NCBI RefSeq assembly: GCF_003609605.1
Contig: NZ_MCHY01000006.1
Coordinates: forward strand, 372,001 to 436,000
Source of the DNA: Ammoniphilus oxalaticus
GTDB lineage: Bacteria; Bacillota; Bacilli; Aneurinibacillales; RAOX-1
Length of the DNA: 64,000 bases
Direction of reading: 5' to 3'
This document shows, in pieces, positions 13,052 through 19,218 of the stretch. The position numbers and the translations under genes were made by a program. Each line of letters begins with the position of its first letter. Within the stretch, counting starts at the first letter, position 1. A model generated the notes under the pieces. The model did not search any database, was not told the origin of the DNA, and worked only from the letters and a program-made list of their open reading frames with translations.

Positions 13052-13092
13052 GCGCTTCATCATCGTTTGCTGGATATAATTGAGCCCAATTG

Positions 13093-13135
13093 AAAAAAAC
13101 CTGAGATCTGAAGCAAAAAGATCTCAGGTTTTTTG
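13093..13135 (+). terminator. Intrinsic terminator closing cydABDC
   Basis: AAAAAACCTGAGATCT and AGATCTCAGGTTTTTT arms flank a short A-rich loop. The symmetric A and T tracts would allow function on both strands. Confidence 0.9.
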
Positions 13136-13173
13136 TCGTTTTAAGGGAATGTTTGACGGATTACACATAACTG

Positions 13174-13201
13174 GATATAATTAGATCTAATTAGTTATAT
13201 C
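13174..13201. promoter_or_regulatory. Dyad-symmetric element with embedded -10 before the metal-uptake operon
   Basis: GATATAA (13174) and TTATATC (13195) are perfect inverted arms around the palindrome TTAGATCTAA. TATAAT (13176-13181) is embedded, so a bound repressor would cover the promoter. A related TGGATATAATTGAG stretch occurs about 100 bases upstream, near 13071. Regulator unknown. Confidence 0.4.
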
Positions 13202-13293
13202 TTGTTATAACTGTTGTAGTTGGAGGTATGTTAATTTACTTTTGACAAGGAGGTGAGCCGCGTACGAATTGATCGACTAAAAACGGAATATCG

Positions 13294-13446
13294 TTTTTTC
13301 TTCGAGCCTGGACTCCTAACAGGAAACTCATGGATAAAGGCCTGGGTAGCAATTACCCACGGGGTTATTTGGGAAACCGAATGGCCTATTCTCTCTATAA
13401 AGAAGAAAGGTTATTTAATCTAGCCTTCTTTGAGCTGGATTTTTTT
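13294..13446 (+). ncRNA. Structured 5' leader, candidate riboswitch with terminator/antiterminator
   Basis: A basal stem can form between TTTCTTC (13297-13303) and GAAGAAA (13402-13408). Inside it lie a bulged hairpin (GAG-CCTG ... CAGG-CTC, 13304-13327) and a GGCC/GGCC stem enclosing the hairpin GGGTA/TACCC and the hairpin ATTTGG-GAAA-CCGAAT with a GNRA loop. Downstream, ATCTAGC (13418) and GCTGGAT (13434) form a hairpin running straight into a T tract, a terminator. AAAGAAG (13399-13405) can pair with CTTCTTT (13425-13431), which disrupts the terminator, but part of it is taken by the basal stem. That is the layout of an OFF switch. The operon content makes a Moco/Tuco-type aptamer worth testing, but I cannot confirm a class. 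Confidence 0.5.
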
Positions 13447-13510
13447 AATTTTTAGAACAATCAGCGTAGTTGTGTGGAGAGTTATTTTATTTTTAAGAGA
13501 AGGAGATGCG

Positions 13511-14530
13511 ATGGATCGTTTAGATAGTAAAATTTCTTTCAAGTTTAGCGTGATGATTGTTTTGTTACTCATGTTGGCCATGGCGTCATTTGCGATTGGG
13601 CGGTATCCGATCCCCCCGGATCTTGTGCTTGGAATCATGTTTTCCAAATTTATACATGTTCAACAAACATGGTCGGATACGATGGAGACAGTTATTTTTA
13701 ATGTGAGGATTCCGCGAATTATCGCTGCCATTGTTGTCGGCGGAGTCTTGTCCGTAGCGGGCGCCGCTTTTCAGAATTTGACAAAAAATCCAATGGCTGC
13801 TCCTGATATTTTAGGTGTCTCAGCGGGCGCGGGCTTTGGCGCGGCAATGGCAATGACGCTTTCTTTTCCTTGGTTTGGGATTCAATTGTCAGCCTTTTTG
13901 TTTTCGCTGTTGGCGGTAGGTCTTGCAATTGGGATAAGCCGCATATTCGGTAAAAATTCGATTGTCGTCCTTATCTTAGGAGGACTTGTTATCTCCGCTT
14001 TTTTTCAAGCGTTGATTTCATTATTAAAGTATATCGCGGATCCAGAAGATACGTTGCCGGCCATTACTTTTTGGTTGATGGGCGGTTTATCTAAAGTAAG
14101 CAATCAGGACATGACGATCGCCCTGATCCCCATTTCCATTTCCTTGCTGGCGCTGTTTGTGATTCGTTGGCAAGTGAATGTTCTGTCTGTTGGGGATGAA
14201 GAAGCTAAAGCATTAGGAGTGAAAATTCGAGCGGTACGGATGATCGTCATTTTGTGCGCGACGTTGATGACGGCAGCTGCTGTTAGTATTAGCGGAGTTG
14301 TGGGCTGGATTGGATTGGTCATTCCGCATATGGCGCGCATGATCGTTGGTTCAAATTTCTACTATTTGCTTCCCGCTTCATTTTTAATCGGGGGATCCTT
14401 TCTGTTGCTTGTAGACAACGTGAGTCGATCCGCGAGTTCGATTGAAATTCCGCTCGGGATCTTAACTGCGTTGATCGGTACGCCATTTTTCGTTTTCTTA
14501 CTATCAAAGATTAAGAAAGGGTGGACCTGA
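13511..14530 (+). CDS. FecCD-family ABC transporter permease (siderophore/B12/metal-oxoanion type)
   Basis: 339 residues from ATG 13511, supported by AGAAGGAGA upstream; the ORF extends further upstream but without a ribosome site and into the leader terminator. About nine to ten membrane helices; family motifs include RIPRIIAAIVVG, NPMAAPDILGVSAGAG and GWIGLVIPHMAR. Such permeases import iron-siderophores, heme, cobalamin or, in MolBCA systems, molybdate/tungstate. The stop overlaps the ATPase start. Control is probably by the upstream leader RNA and dyad element. Confidence 0.9.
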   Translation: MDRLDSKISFKFSVMIVLLLMLAMASFAIGRYPIPPDLVLGIMFSKFIHVQQTWSDTMETVIFNVRIPRIIAAIVVGGVLSVAGAAFQNLTKNPMAAPDILGVSAGAGFGAAMAMTLSFPWFGIQLSAFLFSLLAVGLAIGISRIFGKNSIVVLILGGLVISAFFQALISLLKYIADPEDTLPAITFWLMGGLSKVSNQDMTIALIPISISLLALFVIRWQVNVLSVGDEEAKALGVKIRAVRMIVILCATLMTAAAVSISGVVGWIGLVIPHMARMIVGSNFYYLLPASFLIGGSFLLLVDNVSRSASSIEIPLGILTALIGTPFFVFLLSKIKKGWT

Positions 14531-15315
14531 TGTTAGAAGTGAAGGATTTATATTTTAGCCATTCCAAACAACGTCCTATCTTAAATGGTCTTTCGTTTTC
14601 TTTAGAAAAAGGGGATGTGCTCTGCATTTTGGGTCCGAATGGCGTAGGAAAGTCCACGTTGATTCGTTGCTTACTTGGCATCTATGATGTACAGTCTGGC
14701 GACGTTTATATCCATGGCTCGAATATGAAACAACTAGACGCGAGACAGGTAGCTCAAAAAGTTGCGTATGTTCCTCAATCGACAACCGTTGTTTTTCCGT
14801 ATTCCGTATTCGATATGGTCATCATGGGCAGAAACCCGCATATCGGTTATCTTTCCGCGCCATCAAAAAAAGACCAGCAAATTGCAAACGATATAATCAA
14901 GCAGATCGGTATTTCACATTTAAAACATCGCGTGTTCAGTGAGTTGAGCGGCGGTGAAAAGCAAATGGCGCTGGTCGCTCGAGCGCTTGTTCAACAAGCG
15001 GATATTATGATTATGGACGAGCCGACCGCGAGCTTAGATTACGGCAATGAAAGTAAAATCTTACGGTTGATTAAACAAATTTCTGAAACAGGCATTTCCA
15101 TTGTATTAATTACACATGCGCCGAATCACGCTTTTTTAGCAGGGAATAAAGTGGCGATTATGAAAGGCGGAAGAATTCAAGCGTATGGGTCCCCGAGCGA
15201 AGTCATAACGAGCGAACGATTAAGCGCATTGTACGCAACGCCAATTGAGGTGACAGCGGCTCCGATCTCAGGGGATAAAAAAGAGGAAGCGCGTGTCTGT
15301 GTTCCACTACTTTAA
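14530..15315 (+). CDS. ABC transporter ATP-binding protein (FecE/BtuD/MolC type)
   Basis: 261 residues from ATG 14530, overlapping the permease stop (TGATG) with AAAGGGTGG upstream; GTG 14521 is an alternative. Walker A is GPNGVGKST, signature LSGGEKQ, Walker B IMIMDEP, H-loop LITHAP. It energises the FecCD permease from the cytoplasmic face. The 22-base gap to the binding-protein gene keeps all three in one operon. Confidence 0.92.
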   Translation: MLEVKDLYFSHSKQRPILNGLSFSLEKGDVLCILGPNGVGKSTLIRCLLGIYDVQSGDVYIHGSNMKQLDARQVAQKVAYVPQSTTVVFPYSVFDMVIMGRNPHIGYLSAPSKKDQQIANDIIKQIGISHLKHRVFSELSGGEKQMALVARALVQQADIMIMDEPTASLDYGNESKILRLIKQISETGISIVLITHAPNHAFLAGNKVAIMKGGRIQAYGSPSEVITSERLSALYATPIEVTAAPISGDKKEEARVCVPLL

Positions 15316-15336: not shown

Positions 15337-16413
15337 ATGGTTAAGCATTCGAAACGATATTTTTTAACGTTCTTTATTTTAGTGTCCATGGTTGTATCCG
15401 CTTGTTCGGGAGGCGCAAAGCAAGCGGGAACAGATGCAGGTGAACAAGCAACGAAATCAGTTGAAACGACGCGTGAAATTGTAGATATGGCCGATCGAAC
15501 AGTGACGATCCCCGCTGAGATCAATAAAGTAGTTTTAATTGGTCCCGTTCCGGTGCTAAGCACGTTTGTCTTGGCAGTTGGTGAAGGGGATAAAATTATA
15601 AACGGACTACCCGAAAGTTTCGCCAAGCAAAATCGATGGAAATACTTGCCGAAATTCGCGCCAAATTTAGGAACGGAGCCGACGATGCAAGGGGAGTCGC
15701 GCGATCCGAATATCGAAGAAATCTTGCTTGCGGCCCCAGATATCGTCTTTTCAATGGACGATCAAGTGGTCAAGCAGTTGGAGGAAAATGGGCTGACGGC
15801 GATCTATTTAACATGGAAAGAGCCTGAGGAAGTGAAAGAAACGATTAAATTGGTTGGAGAAATCTTTAACAAGCAAGCGGAGGCGAAGGCTTACGCGACT
15901 TATTTCGATGAAACCATCGCAAAAATAAAAGCGGTAACGAATCAAATTCCAGAAAATGAGCGAGTAACAGCCTTGAATACGAACTTCACAAACTTGTCGC
16001 AGCCTCATGAGATTGCTGAATGGTGGATCGAGCAAGCCGGTGGAATAAGCGTAACCGATGAAAGCGCTGAAGTGGCGAATAAAGGATTCACCGTTGAGCA
16101 GTTGTTGCAATGGGATCCAGACGTGATCATTGTGGCTAAGCCAAGCGAGATCGAAGACTTAAAACAAGACGTCCGTTTCCAAACACTGAAAGCTGTTAAA
16201 AACGATCGCATCTACAGTACACCGTTAGGTGCGCACATATGGGCAAATCGAACGAGTGAACAACCGCTGATGGTGTTATTTGCGGCAAAACACATGTACC
16301 CTGATTTATTTGAAAATGTAGATTTGGAGCGGGAGGTTATGAATTTTTATCAGACCTTTTTCCAATATGATCTAACGGAAGAAGAAGCAAAAGAAATTTT
16401 GGCGGGGAAATAA
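15337..16413 (+). CDS. ABC transporter substrate-binding lipoprotein (FecB/BtuF/MolA type)
   Basis: 358 residues with signal peptide and lipobox VSAC. The mature part has the PBP-II helical-backbone fold signature: DMADRTVTIPAEINKVVLIG near the N-terminus, EEILLAAPDIVF in the middle and a C-terminal half ending in a helical segment. It captures the metal complex outside the membrane for the FecCD permease. AAAGGGAG upstream of ATG 15337. Ligand cannot be read from the sequence; DUF364 and a methyltransferase downstream are unlike ordinary siderophore operons. Confidence 0.9.
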   Translation: MVKHSKRYFLTFFILVSMVVSACSGGAKQAGTDAGEQATKSVETTREIVDMADRTVTIPAEINKVVLIGPVPVLSTFVLAVGEGDKIINGLPESFAKQNRWKYLPKFAPNLGTEPTMQGESRDPNIEEILLAAPDIVFSMDDQVVKQLEENGLTAIYLTWKEPEEVKETIKLVGEIFNKQAEAKAYATYFDETIAKIKAVTNQIPENERVTALNTNFTNLSQPHEIAEWWIEQAGGISVTDESAEVANKGFTVEQLLQWDPDVIIVAKPSEIEDLKQDVRFQTLKAVKNDRIYSTPLGAHIWANRTSEQPLMVLFAAKHMYPDLFENVDLEREVMNFYQTFFQYDLTEEEAKEILAGK

Positions 16414-17385
16414 ATGATGCGATTTGGATTGTCTGGAAGTAGTGGCGGCTTAGAGGCGTTGACAATTGAACGACAACAATCGATCATTCCACAGTTAGAA
16501 GCGTGGGGATATTCTTCTATTTGGATTAATGAAGAACATTTTTTACGGCCGAATGTGTTTAGTTATTCACCACTTATTTTAGGCGCGGCTTTTGCGTCCT
16601 TATCGTCTTAATTGCGCATCGGATTTTCAGCATTGATCGTTCCGCTCCATCAACCGTTAAGACTGGCTGAAGAAGTGGCTACATTGGATCAAATTTCGGG
16701 CGGAAGAGTCAACTTTGGGATTTCGAGAGGCCACGGTGGAAATTACTTTGAATGCTTCGGGATCGACGCTGCGCAACGGACTCAGCTTTTCCGCGATAAC
16801 TTAAGTGAGATTTTGAATTATTGGAAAAATGGGACGATTCAGATGGGGGAGACGGAGCTGGGGTTTTCTCCAAGACCTGTTCAATTGTCGGGTCCGCCCA
16901 TTTATGTTGCGGCTTATTCGGATGAGTCTGTCAAGTGGGTTGCGGAGTCAGGTTATCATTTACTTTTGCATGGGATTCAATCGATCGATAGTTTGCGAAG
17001 ATGCCTCCATATTTACAAACAATCAGGAGGGGCGGTAGATTCTGTTCCTGTGGGTCGTTTTGTGTATGTAGGAGAAAACGATGAGCAAGCGCGTGAAGAA
17101 ATTTGGCCTACGCTCCTTGATATTTCAGCCGTTTTTAAAAGGATTCGTACTGAACGATTTGCTCAGATAAATTCTGAACAGGATATCGAACCGGAGGGAC
17201 TTTTGCGACAGCTTGCGATTATTGGAGGTCCCGAAACGCGCGCAATGAAAATAGCTCAGTTAAGAGAGGAGCTAGGCATACAGCACTTAAATTTGTTGCC
17301 CTCTTTTTTCGGTCTGCTGCCAGGGCGGTTATTGGAACAATCGTTAGTAAGATTTTCCCAAGAGGTTATGCCTAGATTAAAATAA
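16414..17385 (+). pseudogene. Luciferase-like (LLM-class) flavin monooxygenase, interrupted by an in-frame stop
   Basis: Two open stretches in the same frame, 16414-16611 and 16612-17385, are separated only by TAA at 16609-16611. The first ends ...FASLSS and the second continues LRIGFSALIVPLHQPLRLAE, the normal run of an LLM-class enzyme (usually ...R LRIG). Later ATLDQISGGR and the glycine-rich ISRGHGG follow family pattern. One base change would restore about 323 residues. TTG at 16612 directly after the stop could reinitiate but would lack the first strand. In-operon position suggests a role tied to the transported ligand before it was broken. Confidence 0.75.
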
Positions 17386-17420
17386 TCAACTTTTATGGAG
17401 AGTGGAGAGGGGATAGAAAC

Positions 17421-18089
17421 ATGTCAGCTATGAAAGATCGTTTAAAAGGGGATCAGGTTCAAGCTACACGTTCAGAATCGGAGCTGGAGCTTCATGTGAA
17501 TGACCACCGTGAACTTGTAAACGCTGATTTACAGCAAATCATAACGAAAATAAAATATTGGAAAATCCTTACGCGTCCATGCAAAATGTTGGATTTGAGC
17601 CATCCATATGGATTGTACGCGTATGAATTTTCTCGATTATATACAAATGTTGACGCAACCGTTCTAATTGACCAAGCAGGCAGAACTTTTATGAATGAAT
17701 TAATAGGCAGGGATAAAAGCGCGCAAAAAATAACAGTCGTTAATGATGGATTATCCTCACTTGATCCGAAATCTTTTGATATCGTAATTTGCTCTCATAC
17801 ACTTTATCAACATCGGAAACAACTTGTGCCGACCTTAACTGAGATTTCAAACTATATACGATCGGGTGGGCTATTGATTTCCAATCATTATTTTTGCAGT
17901 CCGGATTGCGGGGAACAGGATAGCGGTCTCGATGAGCTCGGCCAATCTAAAAAATTATTTGATCATCCATTATGTGATGTTGAGCGGTTTAGGGAATTTA
18001 TTGAACGATCCAATTTTACGATTCACCGATCGGGTGTATATCCTAGTTTATTCGGTGATTGTCATTTTGAAATTGCAAAAAAGATATGA
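17421..18089 (+). CDS. Class I SAM-dependent methyltransferase-like protein
   Basis: 222 residues. Residues about 50-155 resemble a Rossmann methyltransferase: MLDLSHPYGLYAYEFSRLY takes the place of motif I, though it lacks the usual GxGxG. FDIVICSHTLYQH (motif IV) and IRSGGLLISNHYF (motif V/VI) follow. The weak motif I means SAM binding is not certain. GGAGAGGGG precedes ATG 17421. Position between the LLM gene and the DUF364 gene suggests a role in processing a metal or metallophore. Confidence 0.6.
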   Translation: MSAMKDRLKGDQVQATRSESELELHVNDHRELVNADLQQIITKIKYWKILTRPCKMLDLSHPYGLYAYEFSRLYTNVDATVLIDQAGRTFMNELIGRDKSAQKITVVNDGLSSLDPKSFDIVICSHTLYQHRKQLVPTLTEISNYIRSGGLLISNHYFCSPDCGEQDSGLDELGQSKKLFDHPLCDVERFREFIERSNFTIHRSGVYPSLFGDCHFEIAKKI

Positions 18090-18121: not shown

Positions 18122-18967
18122 ATGTTGGATGTCATTGTGAAAGATGATATTTTACAAGCGAGTCTGAACGAGATTACCGAAATTCTCGGAGAAGAGCGAT
18201 TGGCATCGATTACGATTGAACGGGCAGTGATCGGATTGTTTTTCATCGGGGTAAAACTCAGCAATGGATATGGAGGTGTAAGTTATACACCGATCAAGTC
18301 GATTCCTGGGGCCGTTTGTTGTCCAAGCTCGGCTTCGGGATTTCCGATTCCTGGTAAAATACAAGGAGCGAGAGTAACGAACTATGTGAAGGATATTCAT
18401 TCACAGAGCGCTGTAAGAAAATCATTTGCGATCGCGGTGTTAAACGCGTTGTCTCATGCTTGTTTGGATGCTCGGGAACCACAAAATTTTGTCGTTGAAA
18501 AAGGTGTGGACCCACTCGATGTCATCGATATTCCTGGGGACGCTTTGGTTGTTGTGATCGGGGCTCTAGTTCCTTATTTGCGCCGTTTTAAAAAGAATAA
18601 GCAACCGTTTCTTGTGCTCGAATTGGACGCAAGAGCGTTAAAAGAGGAGGAAATGCCGTTTTTTAGACATGCCGATCAAGCGCGAGAAATCATTCCACAA
18701 GCGGATGTATTGATTACGACGGGGACAACCTTAATAAACGATACAATTCATAGTTTGCTATCCTACTGTAAAAGGGAGGCGCAGATTGTGATTGTCGGAC
18801 CAACAAGCAGTATGCGCCCTACGCCTTTCTTTCAACGAGACGTGGACGTTGTCGGCGGGGTTTTAGTCACAAAACCAGACGAACTTTTAGATACATTAAG
18901 CGAAGGGGGATCGGGCTATCACTTCTTTGGTAAAACCGCGGAGAAAGTGATTTACAGACCGATCTAG
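18122..18967 (+). CDS. DUF364 (putative heavy-metal chelation) domain protein
   Basis: 281 residues, cytoplasmic. The N-terminal part (to about 90) resembles DUF4213, with LSNGYGGVSYTP and AVCCPSSASGFP. The C-terminal part is DUF364: a Rossmann-like region with VVVIGALVPYL, ADVLITTGTTLINDTI and IVGPTSSMRPTPFF. Family members often lie with FecCD-type transporters and metalloenzyme genes and are suspected to bind metal. AAGGGGGG precedes ATG 18122. It is the last gene of the operon. Confidence 0.8.
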   Translation: MLDVIVKDDILQASLNEITEILGEERLASITIERAVIGLFFIGVKLSNGYGGVSYTPIKSIPGAVCCPSSASGFPIPGKIQGARVTNYVKDIHSQSAVRKSFAIAVLNALSHACLDAREPQNFVVEKGVDPLDVIDIPGDALVVVIGALVPYLRRFKKNKQPFLVLELDARALKEEEMPFFRHADQAREIIPQADVLITTGTTLINDTIHSLLSYCKREAQIVIVGPTSSMRPTPFFQRDVDVVGGVLVTKPDELLDTLSEGGSGYHFFGKTAEKVIYRPI

Positions 18968-19062: not shown

Positions 19063-19218
19063 ATCATGACGTTTATGCCAGCAAAATGCTCACGTTCTCG
19101 TCGTGATGCCCTTCATCATGACGTTTATGCCAGCCAAATGCTCGCGTTCTCGTCGTGATGCCCTTCATCATGACGTTTAGGATCGTGCTTCTCACTTGTT
19201 CACGTCCTGATGTCCTCG
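19063..19218. repeat. Tandem 52-bp repeat, three units
   Basis: Units start at 19063, 19115 and 19167, each with ATCATGACGTTTA at its head: exactly 52 bases apart. The first two are almost identical; the third has diverged. The phase and the conserved ATGCTC ... CGT ... GTGATGC order match the 52-bp units at 48909 and 54545. The array fills most of the gap between the convergent DUF364 and lipoprotein genes. Confidence 0.8.

Follow-up and report, generated by a model that had tools for sequence, protein, structure and literature searches.

Genomic context of the leader

The window analysed here, meaning the whole stretch of 64,000 nucleotides, carries a leader RNA in the intergenic space that separates the cydDC genes (the upstream neighbours are named cydD and cydC by NCBIfam) from a FecCD-type operon beginning with the ATG at 13511. 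The intergenic signals and the genes of the operon are as follows.

13094-13134, forward strand: likely intrinsic terminator closing the upstream cydDC genes (16-bp inverted repeat, 100% complementary, with a T run at its end)
13153-13181, forward strand: promoter-like site TTGACG-17-TATAAT (11 of 12 consensus letters)
13500-13505, forward strand: ribosome-binding site AAGGAG, read from the sequence before ATG 13511
13511-14530, forward strand: FecCD-type permease (PF01032, 288 bits; 2nq2, MolB, HI1471, E 1.8e-73)
14530-15315, forward strand: ABC ATPase (PF00005)
15337-16413, forward strand: substrate-binding lipoprotein, Peripla_BP_2 (PF01497; MolA, HI1472, 3psa, E 1e-18)
16414-17388, forward strand: luciferase-like (LLM) flavin oxidoreductase, with an in-frame TAA at 16609-16611 and the rest of the frame open
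17421-18089, forward strand: methyltransferase-like protein, a weak assignment (PF08241, 21.4 bits, cut-off 21.2)
18122-18967, forward strand: DUF4213-DUF364 protein, putative heavy-metal chelation (PF04016, 140.8 bits; PF13938, 56.2 bits)

The earlier note had described an operon with a FecCD transporter and a DUF364 gene, a content that the PF01032 and PF04016/PF13938 matches bear out. Among eight solved structures matched by the permease, Haemophilus influenzae MolB (2nq2) ranks first, followed by FhuB at E 2.3e-52. The binding protein matches MolA (3psa) as the third of 16 solved structures, behind 4ovk and 4pag, and the best NCBIfam models for the permease are of the BtuC, F420-0, FhuB and Fec types, all 16 of 16 under their cut-offs. 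The DUF364 protein has a distant match to the solved chain 3npg (E 2.1e-8), and the methyltransferase-like protein had no match in NCBIfam. By sequence kinship the importer is MolBCA-like and would carry molybdenum or tungsten. In the parts of PMC4031551 that bear on this, MolBC-A is a type II molybdate importer that stands beside ModBC-A in H. influenzae, and MolA binds both molybdate and tungstate. The genome of the window also encodes a ModA, so the FecCD importer is not its sole molybdenum candidate. DUF364 genes are described in sections of PMC2954201 as adjoining transport genes for Mo, W, V and Fe. Just 3' of the DUF364 gene lies a 52-nt tandem repeat (19063-19218), two copies of which are 96% alike and a third 63%.

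In the upstream flank, one promoter-like site was found against 1.4 expected in shuffles, and the site is therefore not evidence by itself. A perfect 16-bp palindrome, TAATTAGATCTAATTA at 13178-13193, overlaps its -10 end and belongs to a set of AT-rich inverted repeats (13167-13208) lying over the predicted promoter -10, a possible operator for an unspecified repressor. Such an AT-rich palindrome near a promoter suggests a ModE operator; this reading was rejected, the genome having no ModE-type match (TIGR00637, 0/1). The 12-nt sequence CTGGATATAATT occurs as an exact direct repeat at 13070-13081 and 13171-13182, flanking the upstream terminator.

Identity and secondary structure of the aptamer

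By sequence and predicted fold, the leader is a member of an already named riboswitch class, the Moco/Tuco RNAs of Rfam family RF01055. The earlier note had suggested a covariance-model search of Rfam with the Moco motif included, and this search returned RF01055 at 71 bits against a gathering threshold of 36 (E 4e-15). The match exceeds a curated threshold over the full length of the model (1-135) and is the only one in the 3.3 Mb genome. A second cmscan match, to RF00101 (E 0.61, under gathering, opposite strand), was dismissed as chance. The elements of the aptamer are listed below.

13288-13421, forward strand: Moco riboswitch aptamer of the P3-containing type (RF01055, 71 bits)
13297-13303, forward strand: 5' strand of the basal stem P1, UUUCUUC, pairing with 13402-13408
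13343-13359, forward strand: P3 hairpin, UGGGUA/UACCCA (13343-13348 with 13354-13359)
13362-13387, forward strand: P4 hairpin with the GAAA tetraloop at 13373-13376, from fold and sequence
13388-13398, forward strand: P5, with pairs A-U (13388/13398) and U-A (13389/13397); the commonest pairs at these places in 118 aligned rows are C-G (91) and C-G (114)
13402-13408, forward strand: 3' strand of P1, GAAGAAA, common to P1 and the candidate antiterminator

The predicted fold of 13294-13446 has a minimum free energy (MFE) of -46.4 kcal/mol (z -2.77), an energy that 3 of 200 shuffles also reached. It agrees with the earlier description of a basal stem TTTCTTC/GAAGAAA closing three hairpins, one of them with a GNRA loop: P1 encloses P2, P3 and P4, and the GAAA tetraloop on P4 is present (GGGAAACC at 13371-13378). 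The P1, P2, P4 and P5 helices and the conserved junction are all in place, and one conserved unpaired base (13390) differs. Aligned with the canonical 11-nt tetraloop receptor, P2 keeps CCUAA and AUGG, and the flanking consensus G and U are each replaced by C.

Covariation and divergent sites

Family alignments confirm the RF01055 structure and show the member in the window to be somewhat divergent. In an alignment of 39 Moco RNAs including that of the window (39 of 42; L009, L011 and L012 were dropped for long inserts or low scores), RNAalifold found 24 pairs, and 19 of these show double changes. A larger alignment of 118 rows from 99 sources, of which 114 are distinct, the window among them, excludes L009, L011, L012, L023 and L187-L208. 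In it, 93.8% of the cells of P1, P2, P4 and P5 are paired, whereas shuffles give 74.7% and slid versions 38-54% (maximum 53.8%); the alignment was fitted to a model made for this analysis without P5, so that the P1, P2 and P4 counts lean on the model and the P5 counts do not. The covariation score over the same 118 rows is 0.547, compared with 0.186 in shuffles, and none of 500 shuffles reached 0.547.

The RNA of the window departs from the family at five sites that are conserved in at least 85% of the 118 rows. Four of these form two compensatory pairs, 13302/13403 in P1 and 13389/13397 in P5, each changed from C-G to U-A. Near-invariant pairs of P1 and P5 have thus been exchanged for other Watson-Crick pairs, and the fold is preserved. 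At the fifth site, 13390, the RNA of the window has U where 111 of the 118 rows have an unpaired C. The double A-U composition of P5 occurs in the window alone among the 118 rows. Elsewhere in the family, the Moco RNAs of the FecCD operons of f72 (L089, L098, L107, L112 and L124) have an enlarged P5 loop in common and, in the alignment, lack the GG that normally precedes the A run.

The expression platform

Two further elements follow the aptamer.

13402-13431, forward strand: candidate antiterminator, 13402-13407/13426-13431 with 13409-13413/13421-13425 (-7.9 kcal/mol)
13418-13446, forward strand: intrinsic terminator, stem 13418-13424 (AUCUAGC)/13434-13440 (GCUGGAU), U run 13440-13446

The terminator ATCTAGC/GCTGGAT with its T tract, already proposed in the earlier note, is present; the fold energy of 13411-13440 is -8.1, and 21 of 500 shuffles were as stable. 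The antiterminator proposed with it, AAAGAAG (13399-13405) pairing with CUUCUUU (13425-13431), fares less well: the complement exists, but when the downstream sequence is shuffled a 7-nt complement also arises in 445 of 2000 cases, so that it is not evidence by itself, and this register was set aside as the main one. The antiterminator listed above is the MFE structure of 13395-13433, with an ordinary energy that 76 of 500 shuffles also reach. Since it takes up the P1 3' strand together with some of the terminator 5' arm, neither P1 nor the terminator can form alongside it. On these computed folds, the true antiterminator register probably differs from that of the earlier note.

For an RNA ending at 13433, where the terminator is still incomplete, the candidate antiterminator is the MFE structure at -40.6, with -40.1 when the register of the earlier note is forced and -39.5 when P1 is forced. 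The antiterminator and P1 states thus lie about 1 kcal/mol apart before the terminator 3' arm is made. At full length, P1 with the terminator is the ground state (-47.0; -42.8 with the register of the earlier note forced), and unliganded RNA might therefore also terminate often. The computed states would be near enough for ligand to decide between them, although energies of such accuracy are no proof.

In the window alone, complementarity between the P1 3' strand and the downstream sequence is weak (z -0.87, 48 of 300 shuffles). In a set of 16 leaders from FecCD operons, complementarity between the P1 3' strand and the downstream sequence exceeds that in shuffles (Stouffer -4.07, compared with +1.27 for a control segment); five of these leaders come from one genus, and six have z above zero. 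Of 15 such leaders, 12 have a hairpin followed by a U-rich tract, as a raw count without shuffle control, the candidate in L098 being a weak one; none was found in L110, L112 or L118. Parts of PMC12121620 describe transcription termination as modulated by the E. coli Moco RNA.

Ligand type

The two subtypes of the class differ in P3. According to passages of Regulski et al. 2008 (PMC2408646), P3-bearing RNAs go with Moco genes and RNAs lacking P3 mostly with Tuco genes; the same passages report control of the E. coli member by Moco and terminators behind some members. The P3 stem at 13343-13359, a mark of the Moco subtype, is present in the RNA of the window. The genome has a MoaA match and four PF00384 molybdopterin oxidoreductase matches, and a search of it for AFOR_C (AOR) gave no match, a combination that fits Moco. 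Judged from P3 and genome content, Moco would be a likelier ligand than Tuco. A single in-frame TGA lies in each of two of the four oxidoreductase matches, G000:C11:121904-123175 and G000:C9:617977-619245 (L085 and L086), which is what selenocysteine formate dehydrogenases would show. Such enzymes are unusual in Bacilli.

Recurrence of Moco RNAs with FecCD operons

Of 398 Bacillota genomes sampled, 220 have RF01055 and 102 have PF04016 (DUF364). In 60 Bacillota stretches taken around DUF364 genes, with the window not counted, 34 FecCD copies were present in 30 of the 60. A same-strand Moco RNA lies at most 4.5 kb upstream of 14 of these 34 copies, compared with two copies having one downstream on the same strand, three upstream on the opposite strand and none downstream on the opposite strand; six of the 60 stretches were bounded with the RNA list in view, and three of these (L089, L107 and L135) are among the 14. 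The 14 cases come from 13 genomes of five families, and because five of them belong to one genus, the independent events are fewer. Starting from the RNA, a FecCD gene lies downstream in 7 of 60 loci (at most 4.5 kb) and 2 of 30 (about 1.5 kb), these loci having been drawn from the strongest matches rather than at random and one of the 1.5-kb cases being the same place as L117.

Between P2 and P4, eight of the 14 RNAs have 18-31 letters, room for a P3, and six have 3-4. When ModA alone was searched in 17 genomes (that of the window and 16 with such operons), four had no match at E 0.001 and a fifth had a sub-threshold fragment only. No paper linking Moco RNA with FecCD or DUF364 came up in the literature searched, which does not prove absence; an earlier listing may stand in PMC3766115, where one class of genes under RNA control is named "Molybdenum & tungsten transporters", or in the supplementary alignments of PMC2408646. 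Tandem Moco RNAs were seen at three loci, with three copies in L150 (3910-4660) and two each in L161 (101-469) and L149 (100-401). In L007, a c-di-AMP riboswitch (646-778) precedes a Moco RNA (1501-1621) on the same strand by about 720 bases.

Distribution and origin

Closer to the genome of the window, RF01055 is present in 9 of 61 sampled relatives, that genome included, and in none of the 14 other sampled members of its family and order. At E 1e-20, the DUF364 protein was found in none of the 398 sampled Bacilli except its own genome. Ten relatives of it from a wider genome search are all proteobacterial and 43-51% identical, and clostridial DUF364 loci reach 52% identity, so neither side is clearly closer. 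FecCD genes accompany DUF364 in seven of the ten proteobacterial loci, and in six of the ten there are matches to FecCD, ATPase, binding-protein and methyltransferase-like genes together. In none of these ten stretches does a Moco RNA head the FecCD genes; the lone Moco RNA among them, in L023, is encoded on the opposite strand, some 5 kb upstream of the FecCD gene. In the FecCD tree, the window groups with the long-branched L110 (support 95/77), inside none of the starred sets of the tree. The patchy distribution makes acquisition by transfer likely. Origin from a known donor was discarded as an explanation, since neither the FecCD tree nor the DUF364 identities single one out.

Proposed mechanism and alternatives

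The family membership and conserved fold of the leader, the terminator and competing pairing in its sequence, and the content of the operon behind it can be joined in one reading. The Moco-class riboswitch very probably acts as a transcriptional OFF switch for an operon encoding a MolBCA-like (FecCD, type II) molybdate or tungstate importer, the ligand, the direction and the ion being inferred. When Moco is plentiful, the aptamer would be bound and P1 held together; the terminator at 13418-13440 would then form, and the operon would be silenced. When Moco is scarce, the P1 3' strand would pair with 13421-13431, using up the terminator 5' arm, and RNA polymerase, with the terminator blocked, would read on into the transporter genes. 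The DUF364 and methyltransferase-like proteins may have a role in Mo/W uptake. The earlier note had guessed at an OFF switch sensing a Mo/W cofactor, and the RF01055 match, the operon content and the MolB-like permease speak for that guess, with ligand and OFF direction again at the level of prediction.

The most serious of the alternatives, though an improbable one, is that the operon imports another metal chelate (for example, a corrinoid, haem or an iron chelate) and that the Moco RNA is incidental. The NCBIfam models nearest to the permease would fit such a cargo, all of them under their cut-offs, as would the ten proteobacterial DUF364 loci, seven with FecCD genes, where no Moco RNA stands at the head in the stretches examined. 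Against it, MolB is the best solved relative of the permease by a wide margin (E 1.8e-73 vs 2.3e-52 for FhuB), and correctly oriented Moco RNAs are found repeatedly, in 13 genomes from five Bacillota families. Only a little less probable is that an RNA of the same family senses Tuco here and the importer serves for tungstate: MolA binds tungstate as well as molybdate (PMC4031551, in part), and six of the 14 RNAs at the head of Bacillota FecCD genes have just 3-4 letters between P2 and P4. The RNA of the window, however, has the P3 that goes with Moco in the passages of PMC2408646 cited above, and its genome is without an AFOR_C (AOR) match.

The remaining two alternatives concern the aptamer itself. 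The P5 exchange and C13390U might mark a variant core within the Moco class, one with an altered ligand preference, for another form of pterin-metal cofactor; the A-U/U-A composition of P5, confined to the window among the 118 rows, and the loss of the conserved C13390 would suit this. Yet the P5 changes keep the pairing, a single unpaired site conserved in at least 85% of rows differs, and as no second example with such a core was found, nothing signals a distinct clade; this reading is quite unlikely. Least probable is that the aptamer has decayed or no longer switches, leaving the leader a constitutive attenuator. Its ligand-free computed ground state is P1 with the terminator, and one of the genes further down the operon is interrupted (TAA at 16609); but the changes at conserved pairs are compensatory rather than one-sided, the aptamer scores 71 bits overall, and the permease, ATPase and binding-protein frames are open. 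The OFF switch sensing Moco is retained as the preferred reading.

Significance

The switch itself is ordinary, and its OFF reading is probable. The point worth following is the recurrent control by Moco RNAs of MolB-like FecCD operons, an importer type that has been little discussed. A survey published in 2018 and covering about 5,900 organisms (PMC6147048) counts, in the sections concerned, ModABC, WtpABC and TupABC as prokaryotic Mo/W transporters and reports 278 Mo-using bacteria without a known transporter. Because Moco RNAs repeatedly mark Bacillota FecCD operons, they offer a ligand clue for this transporter type and for DUF364. It is conceivable, if rather doubtful, that FecCD/MolB-like importers under Moco riboswitches, accompanied by DUF364 and in some cases by a methyltransferase-like gene, form a widespread and largely uncounted Bacillota class for uptake of Mo/W or Mo/W chelates, a main importer where ModA is absent, in which DUF364 handles or builds a metal-binding pterin-like compound.

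Comparison with known systems

The leader shares with the Moco RNA motif RF01055, as set out in part of PMC2408646, helices P1-P5 including P3, the GAAA loop on P4 and a full-length match; it also has a terminator-type platform, as reported there for some members, and a location 5' of a likely Mo/W importer. It departs from the family norm in its A-U/U-A pairs in P5, in the U at the place of C13390 and in an imperfect tetraloop receptor. Its importer is of the FecCD type, whereas the text of PMC2408646, in the part concerned, names ModABC and other molybdate transporters. With regard to DUF364, the window protein, which has both PF04016 and PF13938, can be set beside Dhaf4260 of Desulfitobacterium (PMC2954201, in part). 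The nearest described importer is MolBCA of H. influenzae (HI1470-1472; 2nq2 and 3psa; PMC4031551, in part), to which the permease and binding protein are sequence relatives. The presence of ModBC-A beside MolBC-A in H. influenzae is likewise paralleled by the ModA of the window genome. The binding protein scores higher with 4ovk and 4pag than with MolA, and unlike MolBCA, the operon in the window adds genes for an LLM oxidoreductase, a methyltransferase-like protein and a DUF364 protein and carries a Moco RNA at its head.
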